Origin: Hamadaea flava
Lineage (GTDB): Bacteria; Actinomycetota; Actinomycetes; Mycobacteriales; Micromonosporaceae
Length of the DNA stretch: 64,000 bases
NCBI RefSeq assembly: GCF_024172085.1
Contig: NZ_JAMZDZ010000001.1
Coordinates: 5,580,001 to 5,644,000 of the forward strand
Direction of reading: 5' to 3'
Notes under the pieces: generated by a model
The model's input: the letters and a program-made list of their open reading frames with translations, nothing else
The model's database searches: none
Told to the model about the DNA's origin: nothing
Part shown: piece after piece, positions 1,943 to 19,544 of the stretch
Position numbering within the stretch: the first letter of the stretch is position 1
Layout of the letters: every line of letters starts with the position of its first letter
Translations under genes and position numbers: made by a program

Positions 1943-1958
1943 CCCACCCACCCCTATG

Positions 1959-2022
1959 CGTTGATCATGAACTAACGGTCGTTGTCGACGGTGTGTCGGA
2001 GTCCGAAAGTTCATGATCAACG
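1959..2022. repeat. Dispersed palindromic repeat, family A, copy 1
   Basis: The outer arms are perfect 15-base inverted repeats (CGTTGATCATGAACT and its complement) around a 34-base centre containing TCGACGGTGTGTCGG. The same centre and arms recur at 14410-14468 and 18485-18546. The copy begins 16 bases after the stop of the lipoprotein gene. It could fold as a long hairpin in RNA and may act as a 3'-end element. It has no T-run and no transposase. Confidence 0.8.
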
Positions 2023-2109
2023 CCCTAATGGCCTGTTCGCACCCTGGACAGCGCGGCCGGAGCGCGGGACCATCGAAGTTCCAGCCCCGCTGTTCCGGGG
2101 AGGTGCGGG

Positions 2110-2502
2110 ATGTCGTACGAACTTCCACTCGCCGTTGGATGCCTGGCCAAGACGGTGGCGATGCCACCCGCCGGGGACGGCTGGACCCATCGGGTCGTCG
2201 CCGGAGTACAAGCCCTCCGCGAAGAACTGCTCGCCCACGTACGCGACACCGAAGGTCCCGGCGGTGCGTACGCGAAAGTGCTGCGGGACGCGCCACGGTT
2301 GGCACCGGGCGTACAAGCCCTCGTCGAGGACCATCGAGCGATCCTGGCCGCATTGGACGCCTCACCGCCGACCGAGCCGGTGGACGTCGACCGGTTACGG
2401 GACTGGGCCCGCGACATCGTCGAGGACGTCAGTTCCCATCGCCAGCGCGGCGCGAATCTGCTCTACGAGGCATACTGCACGGACCTCGGAGAGCCGGGCT
2501 GA
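2110..2502 (+). CDS. Small hemerythrin-like helical protein
   Basis: This 130-residue acidic helical protein ends in HRQRGANLLYEAYCTDLG. That tail and the central EDHRAILAALD segment resemble small actinobacterial proteins related to hemerythrin domains. Only part of the usual His/Glu iron-ligand set is visible, so metal binding is uncertain. GGGGAGG lies just upstream of the ATG, which supports this start. It is transcribed towards the converging mtnP gene with a hairpin between them. No partner gene is evident. Confidence 0.6.
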   Translation: MSYELPLAVGCLAKTVAMPPAGDGWTHRVVAGVQALREELLAHVRDTEGPGGAYAKVLRDAPRLAPGVQALVEDHRAILAALDASPPTEPVDVDRLRDWARDIVEDVSSHRQRGANLLYEAYCTDLGEPG

Positions 2503-2523
2503 CTCTTCCCGGCTGTCTGCTCT

Positions 2524-2548
2524 CCCGGCCGGGTGTTCGCCGGCCGGG
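2524..2548. terminator. Hairpin between convergent genes
   Basis: A 9-bp perfect stem (CCCGGCCGG with its complement) closes the loop GTGTTCG. It lies between the stops of the hemerythrin-like gene and mtnP and could terminate transcription in both directions. There is no T-tract, as is common in GC-rich actinobacteria. Confidence 0.55.
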
Positions 2549-2562
2549 CCGCGAGCGTCCGG

Positions 2563-3366
2563 TCAGGGCAGCTCGAACGGAAGCGTCAGGCCGTCCAGGG
2601 TGGACGGGCACGGGCACGTGCGCTCCGCCGGCAGCTGCGCGAGCGTGGCGAGCAGCAGATCACGCAGCCGTTCGGTGTTCTCCCGGAAGACTCGGAAGAC
2701 CTCTTCCTGTGTGACGCCGTGGTCGCCCTCGACCCCCGCGTCCAGATCCGTCACGAGCGCGATCGAGGTGTAGCAGAGCCCCAGCTCCCGGGCGAGGGTC
2801 GCCTCGGGCTCGCCAGTCATGTTGATCACACTGCCGCCCGCGGCGGTGCACGAGCGCGACTCGGCCCGGGTCGAGAACCGCGGTCCCTCGATGACGAACA
2901 TCGTGCCGCCGTCGACGATCGCGTGATCCCGTTCCGCCGCCGTACGCAGCACCGCCGACCGCCCCGCCGGACAGTACGGGTCGGCGTAGTTCACATGCAC
3001 CGCCCCGACGTCGAAGAAGGTGCGTACGCGAGACGAGGTGCGGTCGATCACCTGGTCCGGCAGGACGAACGTGCCTGGCCCCAACTCCGGCCGCAGCCCG
3101 CCGACCGCACACGGGGCCAGGATCTGGCGTACGCCCAGCGACCGCAGCGCCCACAGGTTCGCGCGGTAGTTGATCCGATGCGGCGGCAGCCGATGATCAC
3201 GCCCGTGCCGTGGCAGGAAAGCGACGTTCCGGCCGCCCACATCGGCGATCGTGATCACGTCGGACGGGTCGCCGTAAGGAGTGTCGACTTTCTGCTCGAC
3301 CGCGTCGGCGAGCAGTGCATATAGTCCTGATCCGCCGATCACTGCGAGGTCTGCGCTCCGGCTCAT
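2563..3366 (-). CDS. mtnP: S-methyl-5'-thioadenosine phosphorylase
   Basis: This 267-residue protein is of the PNP/MTAP family, which cleaves methylthioadenosine with phosphate in methionine salvage and polyamine metabolism. It shows the N-terminal phosphate loop GGSGLY, the RHGRDHRLPPHRINYRANLWAL segment (a hallmark of the family, residues about 50-70), the substrate segment NMTGEPEATLARE, and two Asp in VTDLDAG that in this family select the purine base. Length matches the usual 260-280. The frame stays open upstream, but ATG at 3366 begins directly before the conserved core. The gene is divergent from yqgE by 48 bases. Thioinosine preference cannot be excluded from sequence alone. Confidence 0.9.
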   Translation of the reverse strand: MSRSADLAVIGGSGLYALLADAVEQKVDTPYGDPSDVITIADVGGRNVAFLPRHGRDHRLPPHRINYRANLWALRSLGVRQILAPCAVGGLRPELGPGTFVLPDQVIDRTSSRVRTFFDVGAVHVNYADPYCPAGRSAVLRTAAERDHAIVDGGTMFVIEGPRFSTRAESRSCTAAGGSVINMTGEPEATLARELGLCYTSIALVTDLDAGVEGDHGVTQEEVFRVFRENTERLRDLLLATLAQLPAERTCPCPSTLDGLTLPFELP

Positions 3367-3401
3367 GGAGCATGACCTTATCCGCAACCGGGGCGGACGG
3401 A

Positions 3402-3407
3402 TATGGT
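3402..3407 (+). promoter_or_regulatory. Extended -10 box of a likely leaderless yqgE promoter
   Basis: TATGGT ends 7 bases before the ATG at 3415, the spacing expected when transcription starts at the start codon. There is no Shine-Dalgarno sequence before that ATG. The box itself overlaps an upstream in-frame ATG at 3403, which argues against that earlier start. Confidence 0.55.
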
Positions 3408-3414
3408 GCAAGCC

Positions 3415-3987
3415 ATGACATCGGGCGTGGAGCGCATGGAGCTGACGGGTCATCTGCTGGTCGCTACGCCCGGCCTGCGCGATCCCAACTTCGAGCGCAG
3501 CGTCGTCCTGATCCTCGGTCACGAGCAGTCAGGCGCCCTCGGTGTCGTCCTCAACCGCGCGACCGGTACGTCCGTCCGCGAAGTCCTGCCCGGTTGGGAG
3601 AGCCTCACCCCCGATCCGGCGGTCCTGTTCGAGGGCGGCCCGGTCCAGCCCGACTCGGCGATCTGCGTCGCCCGCGCACGCTCCGGGGTCGCCGGGTTTC
3701 TCGGCTTCAGCCGGGTCGTCGGCCAGATAGGGACGGTCGACCTGTCCCGCGATCCGGCCGGCATGCGCGAGCGCCTCGACACCGTCCGGGTCTTCGCCGG
3801 ATACGCCGGCTGGGAGCCCGGCCAACTGGAGGGGGAGATCGCGACCGGCTCCTGGCACGTCTGCCAGTCGCTGCCCTCCGACGCCTTCTCGGCCCGGCCG
3901 GATGATCTCTGGGGGATGGTGTGGCGGCGCCAGGGCGGCCTGCTCGCGGCGGTCGCCCACTACCCGTCCGACCCGTCGCTGAACTAG
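3415..3987 (+). CDS. YqgE/AlgH family protein
   Basis: This 190-residue protein belongs to the UPF0301 (YqgE/AlgH) family, a conserved small soluble protein with no settled biochemical role. The N-terminal LTGHLLVATPGLRDPNF, the ILGHEQSGALGVVLNR segment and the FEGGPVQPD motif are all typical, and length matches the family. I chose ATG 3415 over the in-frame ATG at 3403 because the -10 box TATGGT overlaps the latter and leaves a leaderless start at 3415. It is divergent from mtnP and precedes tRNA-Ala. Confidence 0.88.
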   Translation: MTSGVERMELTGHLLVATPGLRDPNFERSVVLILGHEQSGALGVVLNRATGTSVREVLPGWESLTPDPAVLFEGGPVQPDSAICVARARSGVAGFLGFSRVVGQIGTVDLSRDPAGMRERLDTVRVFAGYAGWEPGQLEGEIATGSWHVCQSLPSDAFSARPDDLWGMVWRRQGGLLAAVAHYPSDPSLN

Positions 3988-4059
3988 TCATACCCGATTT
4001 CGCCGTTGGTCGGCGGCCGTGTAATATCGTGCGAGTGCTCGGGCGACCGAGCGACCTGC

Positions 4060-4132
4060 GGGGACGTGGCGCAGCTGGTAGCGCACCACACTGGCAGTGT
4101 GGGGGTCAGGGGTTCGAGTCCCCTCGTCTCCA
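4060..4132 (+). tRNA. tRNA-Ala (anticodon GGC)
   Basis: A complete 73-base cloverleaf can be drawn. The acceptor GGGGACG pairs with CGTCTCC, the D stem is GCGC/GCGC, the anticodon stem CCACA/TGTGG holds the loop CTGGCAG with anticodon GGC, and the T arm is AGGGG TTCGAGT CCCCT. The discriminator is A. CCA is not encoded. It reads the common GCC alanine codon of this GC-rich genome. A strong hairpin follows. Confidence 0.96.
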
Positions 4133-4159
4133 CCCGCACATCGGTAATGTCCGATGAGA

Positions 4160-4191
4160 GAAAGCCCAGCTCATTCGTGAGCTGGGCTTTC
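4160..4191 (+). terminator. Strong stem-loop terminator downstream of tRNA-Ala
   Basis: A perfect 14-bp stem, GAAAGCCCAGCTCA with its complement, is closed by a TTCG tetraloop. It lies 27 bases beyond the tRNA 3' end and is the obvious tRNA terminator. Confidence 0.9.
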
Positions 4192-4259
4192 GTTGTGTCG
4201 GGGCGGACCGTCGGTATGCGCCCATCTTGAGAACCGCTGGCGTGATCGGCTCGCCATGA

Positions 4260-4299
4260 CTAACTGTAACAGCACTTATATAAGTGCTGTTACAGTTAG
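4260..4299. promoter_or_regulatory. 40-bp perfect palindrome, probable autoregulatory operator
   Basis: The two 20-base halves are exact reverse complements with no spacer. The left half is CTAACTGTAACAGCACTTAT. The palindrome is AT-rich in a GC-rich background and its centre TTATATAA can serve as a -10 box. It ends 3 bases before the ATG of the winged-helix gene, so it very likely is the operator that this regulator or its parent occupies. Transcription from the central box would begin about 5-15 bases before that ATG. Confidence 0.8.
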
Positions 4300-4302
4300 C
4301 CC

Positions 4303-4479
4303 ATGAGTGAAGAAGGGGATCTTCTCGAAGGCAGCATCTGGCGGCGGCCGATCGTGCTCGACGGCGGTGGGCCGCTGACGATCCAGGAGCTGGCCGACCG
4401 GGTGAAGGTCGCACACTCGGCGATGAGCCAGACCGTCACGGCGATGCGTCTCCATGACCACCTGCGGCTGGAACGATGA
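4303..4479 (+). CDS. 58-residue winged-helix protein, probably a truncated MarR-type regulator
   Basis: The open frame encodes an acidic N-terminus followed by a helix-turn-helix: PLTIQELADRVKVAHSAMSQ, residues about 24-43, as in MarR and ArsR-like repressors. It stops at residue 58, right after the recognition helix, whereas family members run to about 140 residues and carry a wing and dimerisation helices. The stop overlaps the next start as ATGA, so translation is coupled to the MFS gene. Either it is a C-terminally deleted remnant or a minimal regulator. The intact 40-bp operator 3 bases upstream suggests it was functional recently. Confidence 0.6.
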   Translation: MSEEGDLLEGSIWRRPIVLDGGGPLTIQELADRVKVAHSAMSQTVTAMRLHDHLRLER

Positions 4480-5741
4480 AAGCGCTGGTCGATATCGGAC
4501 CGCTCCGCGAACAGCGGGCCTTCCGCCGACTGTGGCTTGGCGCCACCGCGTCCGGCTTCGGCAGCAACCTCACGACGTTCGCCGTCGCCTTCAGCGTCTG
4601 GGACTCCACGCACAACTCGTTCTATGTCGGTTTGATCGGCCTCTTCGCGGCGATCCCGCTGATCACGCTCGCACTCGTCGGCAGCGCCTTCATTGATCAT
4701 CTTGACCGAGTGCGGCTCGCCCGGAGTACCACTCTCGGGCAGATCGCGACCAGCGTGCTCTTCGCCGCAGCGGCCGCCTTCGGGCAGGTCTGGGCGATGT
4801 TCGCGCTCACCGCCGTCGCTGCCGGGCTCTCCGCTGTCGGGTCACCGGCGCGCCGCGCCATCGTCACGCAGATGCTGCCCGCCGATCGGCTCGCGGCCGG
4901 CCTCGCCCTCAACCACCTGTCCTTCCAGCTGTCGATGCTGCTCGGTCCGGCCCTGGCCGGTGTGATCACGGCCGCGTGGGGGAGCGAGGTCTGCTTTCTC
5001 CTCGACGCGGCCACGTTTGTGGCGGCGCTGCTGGGGCTGCGTGGCCTGCCGCCGGCGGCGACGGCCCCCGATGGCCGGCCGGGGATGTCGGCCGTCTGGG
5101 AGGGGCTGCGATTCACGATCCGCACCCCGCTCGTACGGGGTGCGTTGCTGGCCGATCTGAGCGCGACTGTCCTGGCGATGCCCGTCGCCCTTTTCCCCGC
5201 CATCAACGAGGAGAAGTTCGGGGGTTCGCCGCGTGTGCTCGGACTCTTCCTGACCTCGGTCGCCGTGGGCGGCCTGATCGCGTCCATGCTCTCCGGCCTC
5301 GCAACGCGCGGTGCGCGTCCGGGAGCGATATTGCTTGTGTGTGGAGCGGTCTGGGGTGGCGCGCTCGCGCTGGTGGGAGTGGCCGATCACCTGGTGGTGG
5401 TACTCGCGTTGCTTGCGTTGGCCGGCGGCGCGGACACCTGGGCTGTGGTCTCGCGGGGAACCGTAGTCCAGGCATCCACTCCGGACGCTTATCGTGGTCG
5501 TGTCGCCTCGCTGGAGCACATCGTCGGCGTGGCCGGCCCCGAGTTGGGCGGCGTACGCGCGGGCGCGGTCGCGGCGCTCACCTCGGGTGGTGCGTCGCTA
5601 CTGCTCGGCGGCCTTGCCTGCCTGGTCGGCATCGGCCTCATCGCACGGCTCAACCCGCAGTTGCGCACAGGTGTGCTTCCGCCGCCGCAGTCGGCCAACG
5701 CCGAGCGCCTTTCCTCCGCCGGTACGGCCGCAGCCCCATGA
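4476..5741 (+). CDS. MFS transporter (EntS-like exporter family)
   Basis: This 421-residue membrane protein has about ten to twelve hydrophobic helices and the family pattern of drug or siderophore exporters: LGATASGFGSNLTTFAVAF in helix 1, the loop DHLDRVRLARSTTL after helix 2, and SPARRAIVTQMLPADRLAAG after helix 4. The start ATG overlaps the stop of the winged-helix gene (ATGA). The pair resembles a repressor-exporter unit under one palindromic operator. Substrate cannot be inferred. Confidence 0.85.
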   Translation: MKALVDIGPLREQRAFRRLWLGATASGFGSNLTTFAVAFSVWDSTHNSFYVGLIGLFAAIPLITLALVGSAFIDHLDRVRLARSTTLGQIATSVLFAAAAAFGQVWAMFALTAVAAGLSAVGSPARRAIVTQMLPADRLAAGLALNHLSFQLSMLLGPALAGVITAAWGSEVCFLLDAATFVAALLGLRGLPPAATAPDGRPGMSAVWEGLRFTIRTPLVRGALLADLSATVLAMPVALFPAINEEKFGGSPRVLGLFLTSVAVGGLIASMLSGLATRGARPGAILLVCGAVWGGALALVGVADHLVVVLALLALAGGADTWAVVSRGTVVQASTPDAYRGRVASLEHIVGVAGPELGGVRAGAVAALTSGGASLLLGGLACLVGIGLIARLNPQLRTGVLPPPQSANAERLSSAGTAAAP

Positions 5742-5751
5742 TTTCCAGCTC

Positions 5752-5757
5752 TATGAT
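5752..5757 (+). promoter_or_regulatory. -10 box for a leaderless VOC gene
   Basis: TATGAT lies 6 bases before the GTG start at 5764, with no Shine-Dalgarno sequence, so the transcript probably begins at or next to the start codon. Confidence 0.55.
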
Positions 5758-5763
5758 CAGCAC

Positions 5764-6501
5764 GTGCCGCTGCGACTTGTTCAGGTGAACTTCAAGGCTT
5801 GGGATGATTCGGCGCTTGGCCGGTTCTGGGCGGAAGCGTTCGGCTGGGGCCTTTCCAGCGAGGGACCGAGTGTGACCAACGTCGAACCCACAGGCTTCGT
5901 CTACCCGGACCCCGCCGGCATCGGCATCGATGTCGTCAGCGTTCCGGACCCCGAGAGCGTGAAGTACCGCGCGCACCTCGACCTCGCCACCACCTCGGCG
6001 GCCCAGCAGGCGGAGTTGGTCGCGCGGTTGACGGATCTCGGTGCGACGCCCGCCGATGTCGGCCAGGGTGATGTGCCATGGACGGTCCTGGCCGATCCGG
6101 AGGGCAACGTCTTCTGTGTGCTCGAGCCTCGGGAGATCTACCGGGACACCGGGCCGATCGCCGCGGTGGTCGTCCACTGCGCGAACCCACCGGCCTTGGC
6201 TCGGTTCTGGGGCGAGGCGATGGACTGGACCGTGCACGAGGTGACCGACGATTTCGCGCGGCTGCGTTCGGCCAAGGGTGTCGGCCCGTACCTGGAGTTC
6301 ATCCGCGCACAGGGGCCGGAGGCCGTATGGAACCGCATGCACCTCGACCTGGCGCCGTACCCGGATGATGATCAAGCGGCCGAGGTGGCCCGGCTGCAGA
6401 CCCTCGGCGCGACCTTCGCCGACGTCGGCCAGGGCGACGTCGTGTGGAACGTCCTCGCCGACCCGGAGGGCAACCAGTTCTGCGTCCTTACGGCGCGCTG
6501 A
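5764..6501 (+). CDS. Two-domain VOC (glyoxalase-like) protein
   Basis: The 245-residue protein has two tandem glyoxalase-like (PF18029-type) domains. Each contains a WAEAF/WGEAMDW element and the ending DVGQGD-(V/P)W-NVLADPEGN-FCVL, seen near residues 98-120 and 220-243. Such proteins bind metals or small hydrophobic ligands; the function here is unknown. The frame is open further upstream through the 3' end of the MFS gene, but homology begins at PLRLVQVNFKAWDD, so GTG at 5764 is chosen, supported by the -10 box 6 bases before it. Confidence 0.82.
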   Translation: MPLRLVQVNFKAWDDSALGRFWAEAFGWGLSSEGPSVTNVEPTGFVYPDPAGIGIDVVSVPDPESVKYRAHLDLATTSAAQQAELVARLTDLGATPADVGQGDVPWTVLADPEGNVFCVLEPREIYRDTGPIAAVVVHCANPPALARFWGEAMDWTVHEVTDDFARLRSAKGVGPYLEFIRAQGPEAVWNRMHLDLAPYPDDDQAAEVARLQTLGATFADVGQGDVVWNVLADPEGNQFCVLTAR

Positions 6502-6532
6502 CAGCGGGTGCTCCACGCCGCGGCCAGGCCGG

Positions 6533-6814
6533 TCAGGGGCTGACCTCGCGGCCGTTCTCGTCGAGCAGGTGATCCTGCCAGTACCGGTCCCACTCGTCGT
6601 CGACGTGCTTGGGCACCTTGCCCTCGGGGAACCGGACGTAGCCGGCCGGCGGCGATTGGCCGTCCTTCACGCAGGTCCGCCCGGTGGTGCTGTGCACTGC
6701 CGCGACCGCGTACTCGTCGGAGGGGCAGATCGCCTCTCGGAACGCACAGCCGCTCACCAGGAAGATTCCCGCCATGCTCGCCGCCGTCAGCGCGGCCGTG
6801 GATCGCTTACCCAA
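6533..6814 (-). CDS. SCO0607-family small lipoprotein
   Basis: The 93-residue product starts with a lipoprotein signal ending LVSGC (Cys23) and then shows the signature of the Streptomyces SCO0607 family: EAICPSDEYAVAAVHSTTG, then PPAGYVRFPEGKVPKHVDDEWDRYW. These secreted lipoproteins have no known role. It is convergent with the VOC gene and divergent from the AraC-type regulator by 117 bases. Confidence 0.88.
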   Translation of the reverse strand: MGKRSTAALTAASMAGIFLVSGCAFREAICPSDEYAVAAVHSTTGRTCVKDGQSPPAGYVRFPEGKVPKHVDDEWDRYWQDHLLDENGREVSP

Positions 6815-6931
6815 GATCTGGCGCCTCCCTCTCCGGTCCGGTCAGTCTCGTCGCCCCGACCACAGCACGCAAACGTCCGCGTACGCGGCGGCCGGCGCGT
6901 CGGATCGAGGTCGGCGTGCGATGCTGGACGG

Positions 6932-7345
6932 GTGAACCGGGAGGACCTCGTCCGGCTCCGGCGGGCGCGCGACCGGATGGACCGTGACTTCGCCGAGGCG
7001 CTCGACGTGCCCGCGCTCGCCCGGCAGGCGCTGATGTCGCCGGGTCATTTCGCGCGGAGCTTCCGGGCGGCGTTCGGGGAGACGCCCTACAGCTATCTGA
7101 TGACCCGTCGGATCGAGCGGGCCAAGGCTTTGCTGCGGCGCGGGGATCTGAGCGTCACCGACGTCTGCTTCGCGGTCGGCTGTACCTCGCTCGGGTCGTT
7201 CAGCTCCCGGTTCACCGAGCTGGTCGGTGAGACGCCGAGCGCCTACCGGGCGCGGAAACACGAGGCGGTGGCGGCTATTCCGGCCTGCTTCACCAAGATG
7301 CGTACGCGGCCGAGCCGCACCGCCCGGACGGGGTCGTCAGCGTAA
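6932..7345 (+). CDS. AraC-family regulator lacking a ligand domain
   Basis: At 137 residues this is essentially only the double helix-turn-helix of the AraC family. The first HTH is LARQALMSPGHFARSFRAAF. The second carries the VTDVCFAVGCTSLGSFSSRF signature. The family usually has another 150 residues for ligand binding. GTG at 6932 is preceded by GATGCT six bases upstream, suggesting a leaderless transcript. A VOC protein gene follows 10 bases later, and this AraC-VOC pairing recurs in actinobacteria, so the VOC protein is the likely target or partner. Confidence 0.85.
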   Translation: MNREDLVRLRRARDRMDRDFAEALDVPALARQALMSPGHFARSFRAAFGETPYSYLMTRRIERAKALLRRGDLSVTDVCFAVGCTSLGSFSSRFTELVGETPSAYRARKHEAVAAIPACFTKMRTRPSRTARTGSSA

Positions 7346-7355
7346 CGTGACGGCC

Positions 7356-7784
7356 ATGGACATCAAGGTTTCGCACTGCTTCATTCTGGTGGACGACCAT
7401 GAGAAGGCCCTGGGCTTCTATCGTGACGTGCTCGGCTTCGAGGTCCGCAACGACGTCAGCTTCGAGGGCATGCGCTGGGTGACGGTCGTCCCGCCGAGTC
7501 AGCCGGAGCTGCAGATCACGATCGAGACCGTCGACTCCAATCCGGAGGCCTCGCCGGAGGACAAGGACAAGCAGGCGGACCTGCTCGCCAAGGGCATGCT
7601 GCGCGGGCTGGTCTTCACGACCGACGACGTCGACGCCGCCTTCGAGCACATCCGGGCGTCCGGTGCCGAGGTGCTGGAGGAGCCGACCGACCAGCCTTAC
7701 GGCGTACGCGACTGTGCGTTCCGCGACCCGGCCGGGAACATGATCCGGCTGAACCAGCCTAAAAGGGCCGATCGGCTCAAGTAG
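7356..7784 (+). CDS. VOC family (glyoxalase/bleomycin-resistance-like) protein
   Basis: This 142-residue single-domain VOC protein has paired beta-alpha-beta-beta-beta modules: KVSHCFILVDDHEKALGFYR at the start and the ending DPAGNMIRLNQP. It lies 10 bases behind the AraC-type regulator and is probably cotranscribed. It could be a dioxygenase, isomerase or binding protein; no specific substrate residues are diagnostic. A hairpin ends the unit. Confidence 0.85.
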   Translation: MDIKVSHCFILVDDHEKALGFYRDVLGFEVRNDVSFEGMRWVTVVPPSQPELQITIETVDSNPEASPEDKDKQADLLAKGMLRGLVFTTDDVDAAFEHIRASGAEVLEEPTDQPYGVRDCAFRDPAGNMIRLNQPKRADRLK

Positions 7785-7802
7785 GCCCGACCGGCCCGCG
7801 AA

Positions 7803-7832
7803 GAAGGCGTAGGCCCGTCGGCCCACGCCTTC
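7803..7832. terminator. Hairpin between convergent VOC and cupin genes
   Basis: GAAGGCGT pairs with ACGCCTTC, extended by GGCC/GGCC across one mismatch. It sits between two converging stops at 7784 and 7847 and probably serves both. Confidence 0.65.
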
Positions 7833-7846
7833 CGTTCGTTCGACGA

Positions 7847-8209
7847 TCAGCTCGGCTTGGCGTACGTCGCGATCTCGCCGAAGTCCAGGGCGATGCACGC
7901 CTCGTTGCCGATCACCTCGGCGTCATGGCCGGGCAGGACGAAAGCCACCTCACCCGGTGTCAGCTCCTGCTCGGAACCGTCCTTCATATGGACGACCATC
8001 CGGCCCTGCAACAGGTAGATGAGGTGCTGTACCTCGCATAACTCGGTACCAGCGAGCGGCTTGACGTTCTTCGACCACTTCCAGCCGGGTTCGAACGTCC
8101 CCCGTGCGACCGGCTTGCCCCCGAGCATCACGATGTCGGCCATCCCGTTGCCCTGGAAGGGCCGGGTCTCGTCGGGCTTCTCGAACGACTTCACTTCGAT
8201 GGTGTTCAT
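7847..8209 (-). CDS. Cupin-domain protein
   Basis: The 120-residue protein is a single beta-barrel cupin: the first motif is around ELCEVQHLIYLLQGRMVV and the second around LTPGEVAFVLPGHDAEVIG. It resembles small cupins of actinobacteria that share the opening FEKPDETRPF. The metal-binding His set is incomplete, so it may bind a ligand without catalysis. ATG 8209 is preceded by GGGGTGA at suitable distance; an upstream in-frame GTG at 8218 is less well placed. Convergent with the VOC gene. Confidence 0.82.
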   Translation of the reverse strand: MNTIEVKSFEKPDETRPFQGNGMADIVMLGGKPVARGTFEPGWKWSKNVKPLAGTELCEVQHLIYLLQGRMVVHMKDGSEQELTPGEVAFVLPGHDAEVIGNEACIALDFGEIATYAKPS

Positions 8210-8305
8210 GCAGGTCACCCCCGTTCGATTTCTTCCAGCGTACGGCGGATTCCGGGGCGAAATCCGGCGATTGCCGGAGGCAACCGTTTTCCCGATTCGA
8301 CCCCG

Positions 8306-10138: not shown

Positions 10139-10214
10139 GTTCTTTCCTCCCCGCGAGACTGCGACAGCATGCCACTTGCGGCGGTCGGCGTAAATCACCC
10201 TTCAGGCACAGCCG

Positions 10215-10227
10215 ACACATATTGTGT
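10215..10227. promoter_or_regulatory. 13-bp palindrome upstream of the P450 gene
   Basis: ACACA-TAT-TGTGT lies 20 bases before the P450 start and 76 bases from the divergent kinase start. A related half site, GTGACACAC, follows. It may be a repressor operator or overlap a promoter; the binding protein is unknown. Confidence 0.4.
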
Positions 10228-10247
10228 GCCGTGACACACTCGGGACT

Positions 10248-11423: not shown

Positions 11424-11430
11424 CCCCGCC

Positions 11431-11482
11431 GCCCCTCCCACCCTGCCACCGCCGCGCGGCGGGCGGCGGGTGGGCGAGGGGC
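11431..11482. terminator. Long GC-rich hairpin after the P450 gene
   Basis: GCCCCTCCCACCC pairs with GGGTGGGCGAGGGGC with small bulges, and an inner CCGCCG/CGGCGG extends the stem. It starts 7 bases after the P450 stop and separates it from the next gene. Confidence 0.6.
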
Positions 11483-11522
11483 AGGGGGCAACGGATCGGG
11501 GGGTCTGGGGCGTTCCCCTGGC

Positions 11523-12254
11523 ATGGAGCTGCGTCTGTCTGCGGCGGATCTCGGCCGCGTCACCGTCGCGCAAGGGGCCGATCCCGAGCTGGAGTACCAG
11601 CTCAGCCTGAGGATGTTGCGCCGCCCGTCGTTGCCGTGCTTCGTCGACTGGCATGGCGAGATGGCGCAGCGGTTCCGGTATCGGGAGTTGACCGACCGCG
11701 CGGGGTATGAGCGCACCGCGATCGAGCCGTATTGGGATCGCATCGAGAAGTTCGTCGCGGCGGAGCGGGTTCGGCTCGGCCGCACGGTGCTCGACGGCGG
11801 CTTGGACGGCCTGCTCAGCACGCTGCATCCGGAGGTTCGCTGGGCACCGCCGTCGTTGCGGGTCACCGGGCCCGACGAAGTGGTGGCCGGCGAGGGCGGG
11901 TTGCTGGTGCAGCCGTCGGTCTTCGTCGGGCACCATCCGATGCTCGTGCGCCGCAAAGGACAGGCCGTCCTGGTCCAACCGGTGAGCTGTGAGCTGGAGG
12001 ATCAGGCGGATGAGCAGCTCGGCGCGCTCATGGGGCGTACCCGGGCGAAGTTGGTCAAAATCCTGATGCTCGCGGGTGGTGCGACGACCACGCAGCTCGC
12101 GCGCCGCGCGGATCTGTCGCTGGCCGCGGTCAGCCAGCACGTCGCCGTGCTGCGGGCGGTCGGGCTCGTGGTCACCCAGAACGCCGGCCGCGAGCGGTGC
12201 CATCTACTCACGCCGGCGGGCGCGCGACTCGTCGAGCGTCCCGCCTGTTCCTGA
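11523..12254 (+). CDS. ArsR-type winged-helix regulator with DUF5937-like N-terminal half
   Basis: The 243-residue protein has a C-terminal winged helix: TRAKLVKILMLAGGATTTQL, then SLAAVSQHVAVLRAVGLVV as recognition helix and start of the wing. Its N-terminal half (LRLSAADLGRVTVAQGADP and AIEPYWDRIEKFVAAERVR) is the ligand or dimer domain seen in a class of actinobacterial ArsR-like proteins of about 320 residues. This copy is about 80 residues shorter, missing a central segment. No cysteine metal site is visible. It stands alone between the P450 and GH36 genes, with no clear target. Confidence 0.78.
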   Translation: MELRLSAADLGRVTVAQGADPELEYQLSLRMLRRPSLPCFVDWHGEMAQRFRYRELTDRAGYERTAIEPYWDRIEKFVAAERVRLGRTVLDGGLDGLLSTLHPEVRWAPPSLRVTGPDEVVAGEGGLLVQPSVFVGHHPMLVRRKGQAVLVQPVSCELEDQADEQLGALMGRTRAKLVKILMLAGGATTTQLARRADLSLAAVSQHVAVLRAVGLVVTQNAGRERCHLLTPAGARLVERPACS

Positions 12255-12280
12255 CTTGTACGCCGAGAGCAGGGCCCGGA

Positions 12281-12286
12281 TATCCT
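12281..12286 (+). promoter_or_regulatory. -10 box for a leaderless GH36 gene
   Basis: TATCCT ends 7 bases before ATG 12294 and no Shine-Dalgarno sequence is present. Confidence 0.5.
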
Positions 12287-12293
12287 CGCCGTC

Positions 12294-14417
12294 ATGACCT
12301 TGGTGTGCCTGCGGGCGAACGACTCGGCGCTGGTGCTGGACGTGTCCGGCCCGAAGCTGCCGCGCGTGCTGCATTGGGGGGCCGACCCGGGATCGCTGGA
12401 GGGTTTCGCGCTCGCGACGCAGCCGTTCGCGTTGCAGGTCGACGAGCCGATGCCGATCACGTTGCTGCCCGCGCAGGCCGACGGCTGGCTGGGGCGGCCG
12501 GGGCTGGCCGGGCACCGCGACGGCACGTGGCCGTTCCAGCGGTTGACGCTGACCGGTGACCCTCAGGTCGAGGTCGACCCGGCCGGTGGCGGCCGGATCG
12601 TGGTCGAGTCCGCCGACGCGGCAGCCGGGATCCAAGTCGTCAGCGAGCTGTTGCTGAGCCCGCAAGGCGTTGTGCGAGTCCGGCATACGGTGACGAATTC
12701 GGGCGACGGCGTCTGGACACTCGACCGGCTCGAAGCACTGCTTCCGGTGCCGGGGCAGGCCCGGGAGCTGCTCGACTTCAGCGGCCGCTGGCCACGGGAG
12801 AAGCAGCCGCAGCGGTCGGAGTTCCAGCACGGCTCCCACGTACGTGAGAACCGCCGGGGGCATACCGGGCACGACGCGACGGGCCTGCTCATCGCGGGCA
12901 CACCGGGCTTCGGCTTCCGGAGCGGCGAAGTCTGGGGCGTCCACATCGGATGGAGCGGCGACCACGTCCACGCCGCCGAACGGTTCGCCGAAGGCGTGAG
13001 CCTGCTCGGCGGCGGTGAACTGCTCCTGCCCGGGGAGGCACGTCTCGCGCCGGGAGAGGTGTACGCGAGTCCTTGGGCGTACTTCGTCTATTCGGCGGCC
13101 GGACTCGACGGGTTGAGCAGTGCTCTCCATCGGGAACTGCGCGCCCGGCCGAGCCATCCGCACAGTGCTCGTCCGGTCGTGTTGAACACCTGGGAGGCCG
13201 TCTACTTCGACCACCGGCTCGACCGGCTGACGGCGTTGGCCGACGTCGCGGCCCGGATCGGGGTGGAACGTTTCGTCCTGGACGACGGCTGGTTCCTCGG
13301 CCGCCGGGACGACAAAGCCGGCCTGGGCGACTGGTATGTCGACCCCGAGGTCTGGCCGAACGGTCTGCACCCTCTCGTCGACCACGTACGCGGGCTGGGG
13401 CTGCAAGTCGGGCTGTGGTTCGAGCCGGAGATGGTGAACCCGCGGTCCCGGCTGGCCGAGGAGCACCCCGACTGGGTCCTCGCCACCCCGGGTCGCTGGC
13501 CGGTGCTCGCCCGGAACCAGGTCGTCCTCGACGTCGCCCACCCCGACGCGTACGCGTACCTGCTCGACCGCATCTCGTCGCTGGTGACCGAGTACGGCAT
13601 CGACTACATCAAGTGGGATCACAACCGGGACCTCGTCGAGGCCGTGCACGCCGGGCGAGCGGGCGTACGCGCTCAGACGCTGGCCGTCTACAGCCTGCTC
13701 GCCGAGGTACGCCGACGCCACCCGAAGCTGGAGATCGAGTCCTGCTCGGGCGGGGGCGCGCGGATCGACTTCGGGATCCTGGAGCACACCGACCGGGTCT
13801 GGACCTCCGACACCAACGACGCCCTGGAGCGCCAGGCGATCCAGCGCTGGACCGGTCTTCTGCTGCCGCCGGAGCTGATGGGGGCGCACATCGGCCCGCC
13901 GCACGCGCACACCACCGGCCGGTACGCCGACCTGCCGTTCCGGGCGGCCACCGCCCTCTTCGGCCACGCCGGCCTGGAGTGGGACCTGACCTCGCTCAGC
14001 GAGGCCGAGCTGGCGCAGCTGACCGCGTGGATCACGCTCTACAAGCGACTGCGGCCGCTGCTGCACACCGGCGACGTCGTCCGGGCCGACCATCCCGATC
14101 CGGCCGCCTGGCTGCACGGCGTCGTCGCGGCCGACGGCGCGCACGCGGTCTATTGCTACGCCCAGCTCACCGCGCCGCTCGACCTCGCGCCTCCGGCGCT
14201 GCGGCTGCCGGGCCTCGACCCCGCGCGGACGTACGAGGTCCGGGTACTACCCGAAGTCAGCGTGGAACTGGGCGGATCCGCCCGTAACCCGGCCTGGCGC
14301 GACGGCGTCACCGCCTCCGGAGCGATGCTCTCGACGGTCGGCCTGCGGGCTCCCCGCCTGAACCCCGCCGAGTCCCTAGTCCTAGAACTCCACCCCGTTG
14401 TTTCCCGCCGATCATGA
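12294..14417 (+). CDS. Alpha-galactosidase, GH36
   Basis: This 707-residue cytoplasmic enzyme (no signal peptide) is a retaining GH36 alpha-galactosidase that releases terminal alpha-galactose from oligosaccharides such as raffinose or galactosylated hemicellulose fragments. The N-terminal beta-supersandwich leads to the (beta/alpha)8 barrel. Asp442 in YIKWDHNRD is the nucleophile and Asp506 in VWTSDTNDA the acid/base. VLDDGWF and GLWFEPEMVNP are also present. Length fits the family. The stop codon TGA lies inside the left arm of a family A palindromic repeat, so the repeat sets the C-terminal residues. Confidence 0.93.
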   Translation: MTLVCLRANDSALVLDVSGPKLPRVLHWGADPGSLEGFALATQPFALQVDEPMPITLLPAQADGWLGRPGLAGHRDGTWPFQRLTLTGDPQVEVDPAGGGRIVVESADAAAGIQVVSELLLSPQGVVRVRHTVTNSGDGVWTLDRLEALLPVPGQARELLDFSGRWPREKQPQRSEFQHGSHVRENRRGHTGHDATGLLIAGTPGFGFRSGEVWGVHIGWSGDHVHAAERFAEGVSLLGGGELLLPGEARLAPGEVYASPWAYFVYSAAGLDGLSSALHRELRARPSHPHSARPVVLNTWEAVYFDHRLDRLTALADVAARIGVERFVLDDGWFLGRRDDKAGLGDWYVDPEVWPNGLHPLVDHVRGLGLQVGLWFEPEMVNPRSRLAEEHPDWVLATPGRWPVLARNQVVLDVAHPDAYAYLLDRISSLVTEYGIDYIKWDHNRDLVEAVHAGRAGVRAQTLAVYSLLAEVRRRHPKLEIESCSGGGARIDFGILEHTDRVWTSDTNDALERQAIQRWTGLLLPPELMGAHIGPPHAHTTGRYADLPFRAATALFGHAGLEWDLTSLSEAELAQLTAWITLYKRLRPLLHTGDVVRADHPDPAAWLHGVVAADGAHAVYCYAQLTAPLDLAPPALRLPGLDPARTYEVRVLPEVSVELGGSARNPAWRDGVTASGAMLSTVGLRAPRLNPAESLVLELHPVVSRRS

Positions 14418-14468
14418 ACTAACGGTCGTGATCAACCGGTGTGTCGCGTCCGCAGCACCATGATCGAC
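14410..14468. repeat. Dispersed palindromic repeat, family A, copy 2
   Basis: It begins GATCATGAACTAACGGTCGT, identical to copy 1, and ends with the arm CCATGATCGAC shared with copy 3; the centre again has CGGTGTGTCG. The arms are less well matched than in the other copies. The repeat overlaps the last codons and supplies the TGA stop of the GH36 gene. Confidence 0.72.
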
Positions 14469-14556
14469 TCCCGGGCGTACTGATCGTCCTGCGGCGGGAG
14501 TGCGCGGGCGAGGGTGGCCCAGGGGGTGAGGGCGGTCGGGGTGGGAGAGTGGACGT

Positions 14557-15054
14557 ATGCGGTACGACCTGGTCGAAGGTGACATCACCGAGCAGCATGT
14601 CGACGTGATCGTGAACGCCGCGAACTCCTCCCTCCTCGGTGGGGGAGGAGTGGATGGGGCGATCCATCGCAAGGGCGGGCCGGAGATCCTCGCCGAATGC
14701 CGGGCCCTGCGCGCCTCGAAGTACGGCCGCGGGCTGCCGACCGGGCAGGCGGTCGCGACCATCGCCGGGAGGTTGCCCGCCCGCTGGGTCGTCCACACGG
14801 TCGGGCCGGTCTACAGCTCTACGGAGGATAGGTCTGCCCTGTTGACCGCCTGCTACACGAACTCCCTGACGGTGGCGGACGGACTGGGCGCTCAAAGCAT
14901 CGCGTTCCCGCTGATCTCGTCGGGCATCTACGGCTGGCCGCTGGAGGACGCCTTCCGCCGGGCGACCGCCGCCATCGAGGCCTTCGAGTCGCGGTCGCTC
15001 ACCGCGGCGAGCCTGGTTCTCTTCGGCCCGGCCGCCCGCCTCCGCACCACCTAA
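14557..15054 (+). CDS. Macro-domain protein (O-acetyl-ADP-ribose deacetylase type)
   Basis: This 165-residue stand-alone macro domain of the MacroD/YmdB type should hydrolyse O-acetyl-ADP-ribose or mono-ADP-ribosyl-carboxylates. It shows the adenosine-site GDIT (residues 8-11), the catalytic segment [19 protein letters not shown] (about 19-37) with the Asn and Asp of this class, and the phosphate loop SSGIYGWP. The neighbouring carbohydrate genes do not suggest a specific partner; no ADP-ribosyltransferase gene is nearby. Confidence 0.9.
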
Positions 15055-15066
15055 GCCGACGCGCCC

Positions 15067-15190
15067 CCGCCTGAGCGCAGACCCGCCGAGCGCAGACCCG
15101 CCGAGCGCAGACCCGCCTGAGCGCAGACCCGCCTGAGCGCAGACCCGCCTGAGCGCAGACCCGCCGAGCGCAGACCCGCCGAGCGCAGAA
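15067..15190. repeat. Tandem repeat of eight 15/16-base units
   Basis: Eight head-to-tail units alternate between CCGCCTGAGCGCAGAC (16 bases) and CCGCCGAGCGCAGAC (15 bases) in the order 16-15-15-16-16-16-15-15, and only the last unit differs at its final base. The units lie between the macro gene stop and the GH92 promoter. Because unit length varies by one base, the array cannot keep a reading frame. It is probably a slippage-prone minisatellite. Confidence 0.9.
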
Positions 15191-15254
15191 CTACCTGAGT
15201 CGTTGAAGAGAACCGCCTGAGCTGCAAACAAGGTGTCCGGCACGGTTCGGGCTA

Positions 15255-15285
15255 TTGACATATGTCTTCGTAGGGACTTTTCTAT
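15255..15285 (+). promoter_or_regulatory. Likely GH92 promoter
   Basis: TTGACA at 15255-15260 is a consensus -35 box; a weak -10 such as TTTTCT or TTCTAT follows after 17-19 bases. The -35 overlaps a small palindrome, GACATATGTC (15257-15266), whose halves resemble the operator at 15296-15309. Confidence 0.5.
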
Positions 15286-15295
15286 CTCCATTCCA

Positions 15296-15309
15296 TGACA
15301 ACGTTGTCT
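15296..15309. promoter_or_regulatory. LacI-type operator upstream of the GH92 gene
   Basis: TGACAACGTTGTCT differs at only the last base from the perfect palindrome TGACAACGTTGTCA found at 19531-19544 beside a LacI-family gene. It lies just past the predicted -10 and before the Shine-Dalgarno AAAGGAG, an ideal place to block the promoter or elongation. Confidence 0.75.
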
Positions 15310-15323
15310 GAAAGGAGTGGATC

Positions 15324-18300
15324 ATGTCCCGCGGACCTCTCCCACGGCTCGGGCGTGCGTTCACAGCTTTCCTCGTCATCGCGGCCGGTGTCGCGTACGC
15401 GCCGACGTCGGCGCACGCGGCCGTCCTCAACCTCACGCAGTACGTCAACCCGTTCATCGGGACCGACGACAGCAACTCGCCCAACCCCGTCCCCGGCGGC
15501 GCCGGTGGCAGCACGGTCCCCGGCCCGGTGGCCCCGTTCGGGATGGTGCAGTTCAGCCCGGACACGCCTACCGCGTCCCCCTCCGGCTACCGGTTCTCCG
15601 ACACCCAGATCCAGGAGTACGCCCTGACCCATTTCAACGGGGCGGGCTGCTCGAACAACGAGGACATCGGGATTCTCCCGATCACCGGCGCGATCGGCTC
15701 GTCGCCGGGGACCAACTGGACGGCGTACCAGGCGACTCAGGTCAAGGGTAGTGAGGTCGCGCAGGCCGGCTACTACAAGTCGGTGCTGTCCACCTACGGG
15801 AACACGCAGGTCGAGCTGTCCGCGACGAAGCGTACGGCGCTCATGCGGCTCACCTATCCGGCCACGACGTCGGCGCGCGTACTGCTGAACACGAGCAAGA
15901 GCGCGACCGGCAGCCGCAGCGGGTCGATCTCGATCAGCGGCGCGACCGTGAGCGGTTCGGTCACCGGCGGCGGCTTCTGCGGCTCGTCGAAGACCTACCA
16001 GATCTACTACTACGGTCAGTTCGACCGTACGCCCACGGCGGTGGGCACGTGGCTGGGCGGGACGGTGAGCGCGGGCTCCACCAGCACGAGCGGCACCAAC
16101 TCGGGCGGCTACGTCACCTTCGACACGAGTACGAACGCCGCCGTGAACTTCAAGATCGGCATCTCCTTCGTCAGCGTCGCCAACGCGCAGGCCAACTTGA
16201 CCGCGGAGCAGAGCGGCTTCGCCTTCGACACCGTACGCGCCAACGCCGACACCGAGTGGAACACGATCCTGAACCGGGTGCAGGCGACCGGTGGCAGCGC
16301 GACCGATCTGCAGAAGTTCTACACCGCCCTCTACCACGTGCTGATCAACCCGAACATCGCCAGCGACGTCAACGGGCAGTACCGCGGGTTCGACCAGGCG
16401 GTGCACACCTCCAGCCGCACGATCTACCAGAACTACTCGGGCTGGGACATCTACCGGTCGTGGGCCGCGTTGGTGGCGCTGATAGCGCCGGACGAGGCGG
16501 CCGACATCGCGAACTCGATGGTGATCGACGGCCAGCAGGGCGGGCTCATTCCGAAGTGGTCGCACAACAGCAACGAGCACTTCGTCATGACCGGCGACCC
16601 GGGGCCGGTGATCGTCTCCAGCCTGAACGCGTTCGGCGTGACGAACTTCGACACCGCGGCCGCGCTGACTCTGATGAACAGCAGCTCGAACGGTGGAACC
16701 ATCCAGGGCGGCGCCATTCGCGGACGCCAGTCCGAGTACGCCAGCCAGCACTTCATCGACGAGGACTCCTCCGACTCCCTGGAGTACTCCGCGTCGGATT
16801 TCGCCGTGGCGCAGTTCGCCCAGCGGCAGGGCAACACCAGCCTCTACAACACCTACATCGCACGGGCGCAGTGGTGGGCCAACGTGTTCTCCACCGAGTC
16901 CGGCTACGTCCAGCGGCGCGATCCCGACGGCACCTGGACCTGGCCGCTCGACCCAGCCAGCAGCAGCAACTACACCGAGGGCAACGCCTCGCAGTACACC
17001 TGGATGGTCACCTACAACTTCGGCAGCCTGATCAACCTCATGGGCGGGCCGCAGACCGCGCGGCAGCGGCTCGACCACCACTTCACCCAGCTCAACGGCG
17101 GGCTGACCCAGCCGTACTTCTACATCGGCAACGAGCCTGAGCATGGTGTGCCGTGGGCGTACAACTGGGCGCAGTGGCCGGCCGGCGCCTCGTCGGTTGT
17201 CCGCCGTGTGATGAACGAGTCGTACACCACCGGCGCGGGTGGGCTGCCCGGCAACGAGGACCTCGGGGCCACCTCGGCCTGGTACGTGTGGGGCGCGCTC
17301 GGCATGTACCCGGCGACGCCGGGTGCGGACACGCTGGCGTTGCACGGGCCGCTGTTCCCGTCGATCCTCATCGACCGGCCGGTCGGCGACATCCAGATCA
17401 ACGCCACGGGAGCGGGTCAGGGCTCGCCGTACGTGCAGAGCTTCAGTCGCAACGGCACCGCCCAGACCCGGAACTACCTGCGTTACCCGGACCTCGCGAG
17501 CGGCGCCACGCTCGCGTACACGATGGGAAGCAGTGCGAGTAGCTGGGGCACCGGTGCGGGTGACGTGCCGCCGAGCTTCAACGACGGCTGGGCCCCGCCC
17601 GCCGCGGCGCCGAGCCTGGGCACGAACCTGGCCCAGGGCAAGGTCGCGAGCGGTTCGACGAGCTGCAACTCCACCGAGACCGCGGACAAGGCGTTCGACG
17701 GGCAGCTCTCGGCGGCGAGCAAGTGGTGCTCCAGCGTGAGTGGTACGAAGACGCTCCAGGTCGACCTGGGGTCCGCGCAGAACGTCGGCGCGTTCGTGGT
17801 CAAGCACGCGGGTCTCGGCGGCGAGAACACCGGCTGGAACACCGGCGCGTTCACCATCTCGACCAGCACCGACAACAGCACTTGGACCCAGCGGGTCGCG
17901 GTCTCGGGTAACCGCTCCAGCCGCACCTACCACCCGATCGGCACCGTTTCCGCGCGATACGTGCGGCTCGACATCACCACACCCACGAACAACGGCAATG
18001 CGGCTGCGCGCATCGCTGAATTCGAGGTGTACGCCGGAAGTGGCGGACCGGTCAACCTAGCCCTCGGCAAGGCCGCGACCGCCGATTCGTCGTGTGCCAC
18101 GACAGAGGGGCCGGAGAAGGCCGTCAACGGCTCGTGGACCGGCGGGAACAGTGACAAGTGGTGCTCGCTGGGCAGCAGCAAGTGGTGGCAGGTGGACCTG
18201 GGTTCGGCCCAGACCGTCTTGTCGTTGACGCTGCGGCACGCGGGCGCGGGCGGGGAGTCGGCGACGTGGAACACGCGTGACTTCACGATCCAGACGTCGA

Positions 18301-18467
18301 CCGACGGGACGACCTGGACCACGCGGGCGACGGTCACCGGCAACACCGCCAACGTCAGCACTCATCCGATCACGCCGGTGTCGGCGAGGTACGTCCGGAT
18401 CACCGTCCAGACCCCGGCCCAAGACACCAACACCGCAGCCCGCATCTACGAAATCGAGGTCTACTAA
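15324..18467 (+). CDS. Secreted alpha-mannosidase, GH92, with two F5/8 type C modules
   Basis: The 1047-residue protein starts with a Sec signal cleaved after SAHA (about residue 32). The GH92 catalytic region, about 37-755, has the family opening YVNPFIGTDD, FDQAVHTSSRTIYQNYSGWDIYRSW and the late motif GGLPGNEDLGATSAWYVW. GH92 enzymes are calcium-dependent inverting exo-alpha-mannosidases. Two tandem F5/8 type C (CBM32-like) modules follow at about 770-905 and 913-1047, both ending ARYVRxxxxTP and related to each other. ATG is preceded by AAAGGAG. An operator shared with the ROK kinase/LacI pair links the three genes. It likely trims mannan or N-glycans outside the cell. Confidence 0.92.
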   Translation: MSRGPLPRLGRAFTAFLVIAAGVAYAPTSAHAAVLNLTQYVNPFIGTDDSNSPNPVPGGAGGSTVPGPVAPFGMVQFSPDTPTASPSGYRFSDTQIQEYALTHFNGAGCSNNEDIGILPITGAIGSSPGTNWTAYQATQVKGSEVAQAGYYKSVLSTYGNTQVELSATKRTALMRLTYPATTSARVLLNTSKSATGSRSGSISISGATVSGSVTGGGFCGSSKTYQIYYYGQFDRTPTAVGTWLGGTVSAGSTSTSGTNSGGYVTFDTSTNAAVNFKIGISFVSVANAQANLTAEQSGFAFDTVRANADTEWNTILNRVQATGGSATDLQKFYTALYHVLINPNIASDVNGQYRGFDQAVHTSSRTIYQNYSGWDIYRSWAALVALIAPDEAADIANSMVIDGQQGGLIPKWSHNSNEHFVMTGDPGPVIVSSLNAFGVTNFDTAAALTLMNSSSNGGTIQGGAIRGRQSEYASQHFIDEDSSDSLEYSASDFAVAQFAQRQGNTSLYNTYIARAQWWANVFSTESGYVQRRDPDGTWTWPLDPASSSNYTEGNASQYTWMVTYNFGSLINLMGGPQTARQRLDHHFTQLNGGLTQPYFYIGNEPEHGVPWAYNWAQWPAGASSVVRRVMNESYTTGAGGLPGNEDLGATSAWYVWGALGMYPATPGADTLALHGPLFPSILIDRPVGDIQINATGAGQGSPYVQSFSRNGTAQTRNYLRYPDLASGATLAYTMGSSASSWGTGAGDVPPSFNDGWAPPAAAPSLGTNLAQGKVASGSTSCNSTETADKAFDGQLSAASKWCSSVSGTKTLQVDLGSAQNVGAFVVKHAGLGGENTGWNTGAFTISTSTDNSTWTQRVAVSGNRSSRTYHPIGTVSARYVRLDITTPTNNGNAAARIAEFEVYAGSGGPVNLALGKAATADSSCATTEGPEKAVNGSWTGGNSDKWCSLGSSKWWQVDLGSAQTVLSLTLRHAGAGGESATWNTRDFTIQTSTDGTTWTTRATVTGNTANVSTHPITPVSARYVRITVQTPAQDTNTAARIYEIEVY

Positions 18468-18484
18468 CCCCCACCCCACCTCCC

Positions 18485-18546
18485 GTTGATCATGGAGTCA
18501 ACCGTGGTCTCGACGGTGTGTCGGGACGGGACACTCCATGATCGAC
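18485..18546. repeat. Dispersed palindromic repeat, family A, copy 3
   Basis: Arms GTTGATCATGGAGT and ACTCCATGATCGAC flank a centre with TCGACGGTGTGTCGGG. Relative to copy 1 the stem changes from AACT/AGTT to GAGT/ACTC, a paired change that keeps the hairpin. It begins 18 bases after the GH92 stop and ends 16 bases before the converging ROK kinase stop. Confidence 0.8.
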
Positions 18547-18561
18547 GGCGAGGGAGCGGGG

Positions 18562-19503: not shown

Positions 19504-19530
19504 GGCGGGCAGGATAGCCCGAGCGACGTA

Positions 19531-19544
19531 TGACAACGTTGTCA
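19531..19544. promoter_or_regulatory. LacI-type operator between ROK kinase and LacI genes
   Basis: TGACAACGTTGTCA is a perfect 14-bp palindrome with the central CG typical of LacI-family operators. It lies 27 bases from the kinase start and 37 bases from the regulator start, so it can control both. A matching site precedes the GH92 gene. Confidence 0.82.

Follow-up and report, generated by a model that had tools for sequence, protein, structure and literature searches.

REP-like repeats are best known alongside the REP-associated tyrosine transposases (RAYT), and the repetitive extragenic palindromic (REP) elements themselves carry a GTAG-type foot. One account gives the length of REP elements as 21–65 bases (PMC1525189). 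Another describes dispersed dyads located at gene 3' ends, namely the Bradyrhizobium GAATCCAT-N23-ATGGATTC and the Haemophilus uptake-signal dyads, the latter as terminators (PMC5217627). Here we examine a dispersed repeat family, denoted F1, three copies of which lie in a 64,000-nucleotide stretch (hereafter, the window; positions 5580001–5644000 of one contig) of the 8.86 Mb genome of Hamadaea flava (G000). F1 is a ~65-base repeat, often palindromic, that occurs in ~150–180 places in this genome, mostly right behind stop codons. With a probability of roughly 0.55, F1 is a family similar to REP elements and their hairpin-forming doublets (REPINs) but without RAYT, the copies of which probably act as 3'-end hairpins. 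No description of F1 was found in the literature searched, the coverage of which was partial.

Size and subtypes of the family

All three window copies lie on the forward strand and share the left arm and the centre, in agreement with the preliminary description of this stretch, which reported three related copies. Copy 1 (1958..2023, A-type) has 16-bp perfect arms, GCGTTGATCATGAACT and AGTTCATGATCAACGC, with the centre CGGTGTGTCG at 1989–1998, and starts 15 nt 3' of the stop codon of the gene at 41–1942. Copy 3 (18483..18548, C-type) has 16-bp arms with one mismatch and the centre CGGTGTGTCG at 18514–18523; it is flanked by convergent genes (15324–18467, + strand, and 18562–19503, − strand) and lies 15 nt from the stop codon. 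Copy 2 (approximately 14405..14470, B-like) retains the left arm and the centre, with CGGTGTGTCG at 14437–14446, but its outer arms pair across ~8 bp only, so that it is a palindrome just in part; its arm GATCATGA contains the TGA (14415–14417) that is the stop codon of the open reading frame 12294–14417. The original characterization of the copies as 60-bp palindromes thus applies to copies 1 and 3 but only in part to copy 2, and of the distances from the stop codon initially put at 16, overlapping and 17 bases, the overlap stands whereas the other two are close to the measured 15 nt.

The predicted folds of copies 1 and 3 are stable on both strands (−34.2 kcal/mol as read, z −6.0, and −35.3 on the other strand for copy 1; −41.2 as read, z −6.3, and −33.7 on the other strand for copy 3), and that of copy 2 is weaker (−23.2 kcal/mol, z −2.3). 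A scan of window positions 1–20000 for T-run terminators yields 7 terminator-like sites, none of them at an F1 copy, consistent with the lack of a T-run noted at the outset. The Rfam scan of the window detects tRNA only and nothing at F1, and that of 7 F1 loci gives two matches below the gathering score, both away from the F1 copy.

The family extends far beyond the window. The covariance-model search of the genome that had been suggested for these copies, with a model built from 22 copies, gives at least 148 matches (E ≤ 1; 150 candidates scored), and BLAST with copy 1 gives at least 52 (40 candidates scored). The word CGGTGTGTCG occurs 74 times, compared with 13 for the reversed word, and the arm TTGATCATGRAST occurs 95 times, compared with 0 in the control. 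The F1 pattern, GATCATGRAN{10,24}CGGNGTGTCG, which comprises the left arm and the centre and does not require a palindrome, has 177 matches, with 0 in the control. These counts rule out a coincidence of three copies. The fixed part of F1 is the left arm together with the centre CGGyGTGTCG, not the whole palindrome.

Three subtypes are distinguished: A (GTTGATCATGAACT...AGTTCATGATCAAC, window copy 1), C (GTTGATCATGGAGTT...AACTCCATGATCAAC, window copy 3) and B (TTTCCGCGyGATCATGAACTAACGGTCGTGATCGACCGGTGTGTCGTGTCCG...CCTGATCRAC), which has no matching right arm and which window copy 2 resembles. At loci L004, L008 and L012, an A left arm is joined with a C right arm, and at L338 (~2665–2760; G000:C1 near 5,148,165), the centre of a C-type copy is split by ~35 extra bases. 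A minority of the copies form inverted doublets, which are found in all three genera discussed below (Hamadaea, including G003; Catellatospora, genus g17; and Allorhizocola). In G000, they are located at 6809820+/6809943− and 4062904+/4063026−, and in the Allorhizocola genome G022 the 76 matches include 6 inverted pairs, of which five are spaced 83–89 bases. A segment of ~0.89 Mb (G000:C1 ~1,394,488–2,284,681) is free of F1 matches; the piece L177 inside it has a low GC content (0.655) and just 46% predicted coding sequence.

The possibility that F1 encodes a short peptide was dropped after inspection by eye: one frame of the left half can be read through in certain Catellatospora copies but contains stops in others, and the T/C variation hits a second codon position.

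Position relative to genes

Genes were called with a codon-usage finder of our own that had been trained on the window. The larger context scan includes 155 copies (85 from G000, 60 from Catellatospora and 10 from Allorhizocola), with 4, 12 and 3 copies, respectively, set aside because they lie near a locus end or have no called gene on one flank. None of the 155 copies is located wholly inside a predicted gene, and 108 overlap a gene 3' end or lie no more than 50 nt from one (57/85, 44/60 and 7/10, respectively; in 12 of the 85 G000 copies, the overlap is with the end of the left gene), so that the gene-end location first noted in the window extends to the family.

Between tandem genes, 30 Catellatospora copies are oriented with their left arm toward the upstream 3' end, against 9 that are not (p 0.001); the orientation is not significant in G000 (25:16, p 0.21) or Allorhizocola (5:2, p 0.45). 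A smaller G000 set had shown a 13:2 bias for B and perfect A copies, a strength that the larger set does not show. Among 63 G000 copies, the 26 of subtype C are found in tandem (8+8), convergent (7) and divergent (3) contexts, the 6 perfect A copies in convergent (4) and tandem (2), and the 31 of subtype B in convergent (13), tandem (11+2) and divergent (4) contexts, with one lacking a right gene.

Long stems of any family were surveyed in 20 evenly spaced 20-kb pieces and the window, within the first 400 bases of intergenic regions of at least 20 bases, at an effective length (pairs minus twice the mismatches) of at least 12. In G000, such stems are present in 14/39 convergent, 30/165 tandem and 1/69 divergent regions, with 0 in mononucleotide shuffles; convergent and tandem regions combined (44/204) differ from divergent ones with Fisher p 2e-5. 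The figures are 11/20, 17/82 and 0/29 in G001, and 5/21, 13/64 and 3/33 in G003, where stems in divergent regions thus do occur. Many of these stems are plain GC-rich hairpins outside the named families, and others are further palindromes of a size similar to that of F1, with GATC near the ends and interiors unrelated to F1.

Distribution among relatives and turnover at orthologous sites

Among 101 genomes of the family Micromonosporaceae, representing 44 genera, the F1 pattern is present in 24 genomes and 11 genera, with 0 matches in the controls. Within Hamadaea, the counts are 177 (G000), 197 (G003), 118 (G002) and 1 (G001); the five Catellatospora genomes have 32, 65, 49, 52 and 54 matches, and G022 has 76. 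Fourteen further genomes have 1 to 19 matches each, and all others none. A scan of named genomes produced at least 120 stretches; the 80 listed come from eight Catellatospora species, Allorhizocola, two Hamadaea metagenome-assembled genomes (MAGs) and one Micromonospora. F1 is, then, a repeat family of the Hamadaea–Catellatospora–Allorhizocola group.

Several wider assignments were rejected. The R1 matches in G006, G011, G013 and G035 are other palindromes, the F1 pattern having 0 matches there. An order-wide class TGATCAN{34,60}TGATCA appears in 150 of 150 genomes, but the places listed resemble coding regions and the reversed pattern does not serve as a control; G000 has 210 matches per strand, the highest of the 150. 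No F1 match was found in viral contigs, plasmids or phages, and a phage or plasmid origin was dropped.

The flanks of 36 G000 sites were searched in the other three Hamadaea genomes, and the junctions were rebuilt at 24, 24 and 7 sites in G002, G003 and G001, with flank identities of 90.4%, 88.3% and 83.0%, respectively. The script classified them as F1, remnant, other palindrome or none: 12, 2, 5 and 5 in G002, and 11, 2, 6 and 5 in G003; in G001, 3 hold another palindrome and 4 none. Three 'other' sites, L334 in G002 and L028 and L061 in G003, were reassigned by eye as F1-derived. After this reassignment, F1 is kept at 6/15 (G002) and 6/14 (G003) of the C-type sites, and at 7/9 and 7/10 of the B/P sites; that C-type copies are younger than B-type ones is a trend only (p 0.10 and 0.24, respectively) and was not accepted. 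The place orthologous to window copy 2 holds F1 in both G002 and G003; at that of window copy 3, F2 is found in G002, and G003 has F1 as an inverted double (F2–F7 are our names for the other palindrome families). Site L334 lies between the gene for indole-3-glycerol phosphate synthase and the next gene; it carries F1 in G000 and G002, and short direct tandem repeats in place of F1 in G003 and G001.

At site L087, F1 is present in G000, F2 in G003, F4 in G002 and a GC-rich hairpin in G001. Of the 12 sites with a junction that is neither F1 nor a remnant in G002 or G003, 5 hold another palindrome (L030, L060, L063, L075 and L087). Exchange of palindromes at gene ends therefore occurs, but a preference for it is not proven: compared with the background of 44/204 regions, 5/12 is not significant (p 0.095). 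It is conceivable, albeit rather unlikely, that gene ends are standing slots for unrelated GATC-tipped palindromes of ~55–65 bp (F1–F5 and others), which would swap between species as interchangeable bidirectional terminators moved by a non-RAYT activity.

Is the fold under selection?

The arm sequences AACT/AGTT in copy 1 and GAGT/ACTC in copy 3 are as initially given, and the paired differences, which had been taken to favour selection on the fold, do exist. They are nevertheless weak evidence for such selection because the two arm types represent two subfamilies. In alignment A1, which consists of 22 copies of our own choice, covariation, a score that relatedness alone can raise, is 0.211, compared with 0.126 after shuffling (0 of 500 shuffles as high). 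The named structure is formed by 85.3% of the cells (shuffled, 79.8), and there are 11 doubly changed pairs (shuffled, 8.7; 38 of 500 shuffles as high).

Complementarity was also scored at six inner positions in copies taken solely by the outer anchors TGATCATG...CATGATCA. In G000, agreement of the inner arms equals that in shuffled sets (0.712 and 0.706, n=37), which weakens the claim of selection on the fold. The values, each against the shuffled one, are 0.603 against 0.495 (highest shuffled, 0.635; n=21) for G002 and G003, 0.747 against 0.789 (n=56) for the loci from the named-genome scan (Catellatospora, Allorhizocola, Hamadaea MAGs and Micromonospora), and 0.75 against 0.547 (highest shuffled, 0.861; n=6) for other genera.

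In the named Catellatospora loci, 70 of the 72 copies with the left arm and the centre carry AACTT on the left, a figure partly due to selection: for a locus to be retrieved by the scan, one or more of its copies had to contain GATCATGRASTT. Twenty-four of the 72 lack an exact right CATGATC; in 34 of the remaining, scorable 48, AACTT stands opposite AAGTT, with a C–C mismatch, and pairing is perfect in 5. A perfect palindrome is thus not required family-wide. In favour of pairing in Hamadaea, the position mismatched in Catellatospora is paired in subtype A and in subtype C, through differences on opposite arms, and a G–C pair of G000 at site L068 is A–T in the orthologues in G002 and G003, with the neighbouring mismatch kept. 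Quasipalindrome correction during replication could yield paired changes without selection.

These observations bear on the possibility that F1 copies are vertically inherited bidirectional terminators, alike through old duplication and selection and not mobile. The location downstream of stop codons and in convergent intergenic regions, the stable folds and the presence in four species of four different hairpins at the L087 gene end, as if some hairpin were wanted, all fit this possibility. We nevertheless deem it improbable: the dispersed copies are more alike in sequence than a terminator needs, there is no U-tract, the B-type has no full hairpin, 5 of 24 sites are empty in G002 and likewise in G003, and G001 has one pattern match.

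Search for a mobilizing activity

No transposase was found in the F1 copies, as the preliminary description had already stated, and the search for a RAYT that it proposed returned nothing. The Y1/RAYT domain (PF01797) has 0 matches in G000, G001 and the four F1-rich relatives G002, G003, G019 (Catellatospora sp. KI3) and G022; the same search found matches in 5 of 14 control genomes. The domain is present in 6 of 41 genomes, and the F1 pattern has 0 matches in the five of these that were tested (G011, G035, G020, G023 and G024; G030 was left out). Mobilization of F1 as a RAYT-driven REP is accordingly rejected for the F1-bearing genomes examined.

A second alternative is that F1 is akin to the miniature inverted-repeat transposable elements (MITEs), a remnant left by an insertion sequence whose transposase, of the DDE or another type, was lost or overlooked. 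Inverted ends, presence and absence at orthologous sites and a patchy distribution are all features to be expected of such a remnant. However, in 20 regions with close or odd F1 arms, no transposase was recognized by eye in the first 40–45 residues of each predicted gene, and the eight proteins encoded between inverted F1 copies, when compared with Pfam, match other families (6) or none (2), not a transposase; a ninth stretch, L351 3132–4112, was outside that scan. A transposon bounded by F1 arms was hence discarded within these 20 regions and eight proteins, the genome-wide transposase scan being limited to PF01797. Given, in addition, that no target duplication was recognized and that one end is missing in many copies, MITE-like ancestry seems doubtful.

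The preferred reading and its difficulties

Of the two possibilities originally raised, REP-like and terminator-like, the first is borne out by the copy number, the intergenic location and the doublets. Under the reading of F1 as a REP/REPIN-like family without RAYT, the copies would spread as DNA by a trans-acting activity, and those that end up behind stop codons would be tolerated or kept because the RNA forms a stable 3'-end hairpin. Such a hairpin, lacking a U-tract, might slow 3' decay or limit read-through coming from either side or both. A hairpin role is proposed because copies 1 and 3 fold stably on both strands and sit behind genes. REP elements are described as mRNA stabilizers rather than specific terminators (PMC1525189), and a U-rich motif is found at only ~25% of transcript ends in Streptomyces avermitilis (PMC8780764), so that both RNA protection and U-tract-free termination are possible.

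Several observations weigh against this reading. B-type copies form no single conserved hairpin: in alignment A2 (27 B-like copies), RNAalifold predicts just 8 pairs, which are confined to the left half and of which none covaries, and yet these copies persist at the 7/9 and 7/10 orthologous sites mentioned above. F1 also occurs in divergent regions (7/85 copies in G000, 6/60 in Catellatospora and 1/10 in Allorhizocola), and one such copy, at L008, is retained in both G002 and G003. Some of the absences are deletions: in G002, site L036 keeps TTGATCATG and L017 is truncated, so that the absence of F1 from a site can be a loss. Neither a target-site duplication nor a clean insertion junction was recognized by eye in the rebuilt junctions, most flanks being too diverged, and the search of PF01797, the 20 regions and the eight proteins found no mobilizing enzyme.

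That F1 is a DNA-level binding site for gyrase, a nucleoid protein or a similar factor, confined to 3' intergenic space because it is tolerated nowhere else, appears least likely, because, for all its fixed words (the centre CGGyGTGTCG, and TGATCAAC, the most over-represented intergenic 8-mer of G000, with 33 occurrences against 0.9 expected) and the reported binding of Pol I, gyrase and integration host factor (IHF) by REP elements (PMC1525189), F1 is limited to a clade, is almost absent from the relative G001 and, in Catellatospora, is biased in orientation toward the upstream gene.

A family with ~100–200 copies per genome and no RAYT raises the question of what spreads such repeats. The location at gene ends, together with the differing palindromes at one gene end in relatives, would make 'mobile terminators' a testable notion in actinomycetes.

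Other palindromes and nearby repeats

F2 (GCGCTGGATCAGGGTTC...) is a palindrome family of G000 that takes the place of F1 at some sites in G002 and G003; in the window, it is found at gene ends at approximately 20593–20638, 29981–30052 and 60129–60190 (GGATCAGGGnTCnCGGTCGAATC...). F3 (GCTGCAGATCACGGTTACGCAGGC...) and F5 (TGATCGTCGG..CCGACGATCA) are further palindrome families, and F4 (TGATCATTGCG...) occurs in L186 as well as at L087 in G002. F6 (CTTGGATCAGGGAAATCACCCGAATC...) and F7 (CGACGATCTTGCGCGAATG...) are G001's own and likewise lie at gene ends. The window additionally contains an 18-bp perfect palindrome (CTAACTGTAACAGCACTT/AAGTGCTGTTACAGTTAG) at 4260–4299, ~130 bases behind the tRNA at 4060–4132, and tandem repeats of ~15 bases (GAGCGCAGACCCGCC and variants) at 15051–15199, between two genes.

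Comparison with known systems

The intrinsic terminators share with F1 a stable hairpin behind the stop codon, but F1 has no T-run, its loop is ~34 nt long with an inner hairpin, and its sequence is fixed across copies. Bacterial MITEs, like F1, are short and non-coding, with inverted ends and presence or absence at orthologous sites; for F1, however, the parent insertion sequence was not found, target duplication was not recognized and one end is often missing. The dyads of Bradyrhizobium and Haemophilus are likewise sequence-fixed repeated dyads just behind genes, suspected of a role in termination (PMC5217627), and F1 differs from them in its asymmetric centre, its three subtypes and the turnover of its sites between species. 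As for REP elements and REPINs, no conserved GTAG-type foot was seen by eye in F1, these systems have a RAYT cognate, whereas PF01797 is missing from G000, G002, G003, G019 and G022, and in F1 the left half is fixed and the right arm optional. With REP and REPIN, F1 nevertheless has in common that it consists of short extragenic palindromic repeats, often between convergent genes and in inverted doublets, in more than 100 copies: ~150–180 of them, of ~66 nt each, palindromic in subtypes A and C and partly so in B.

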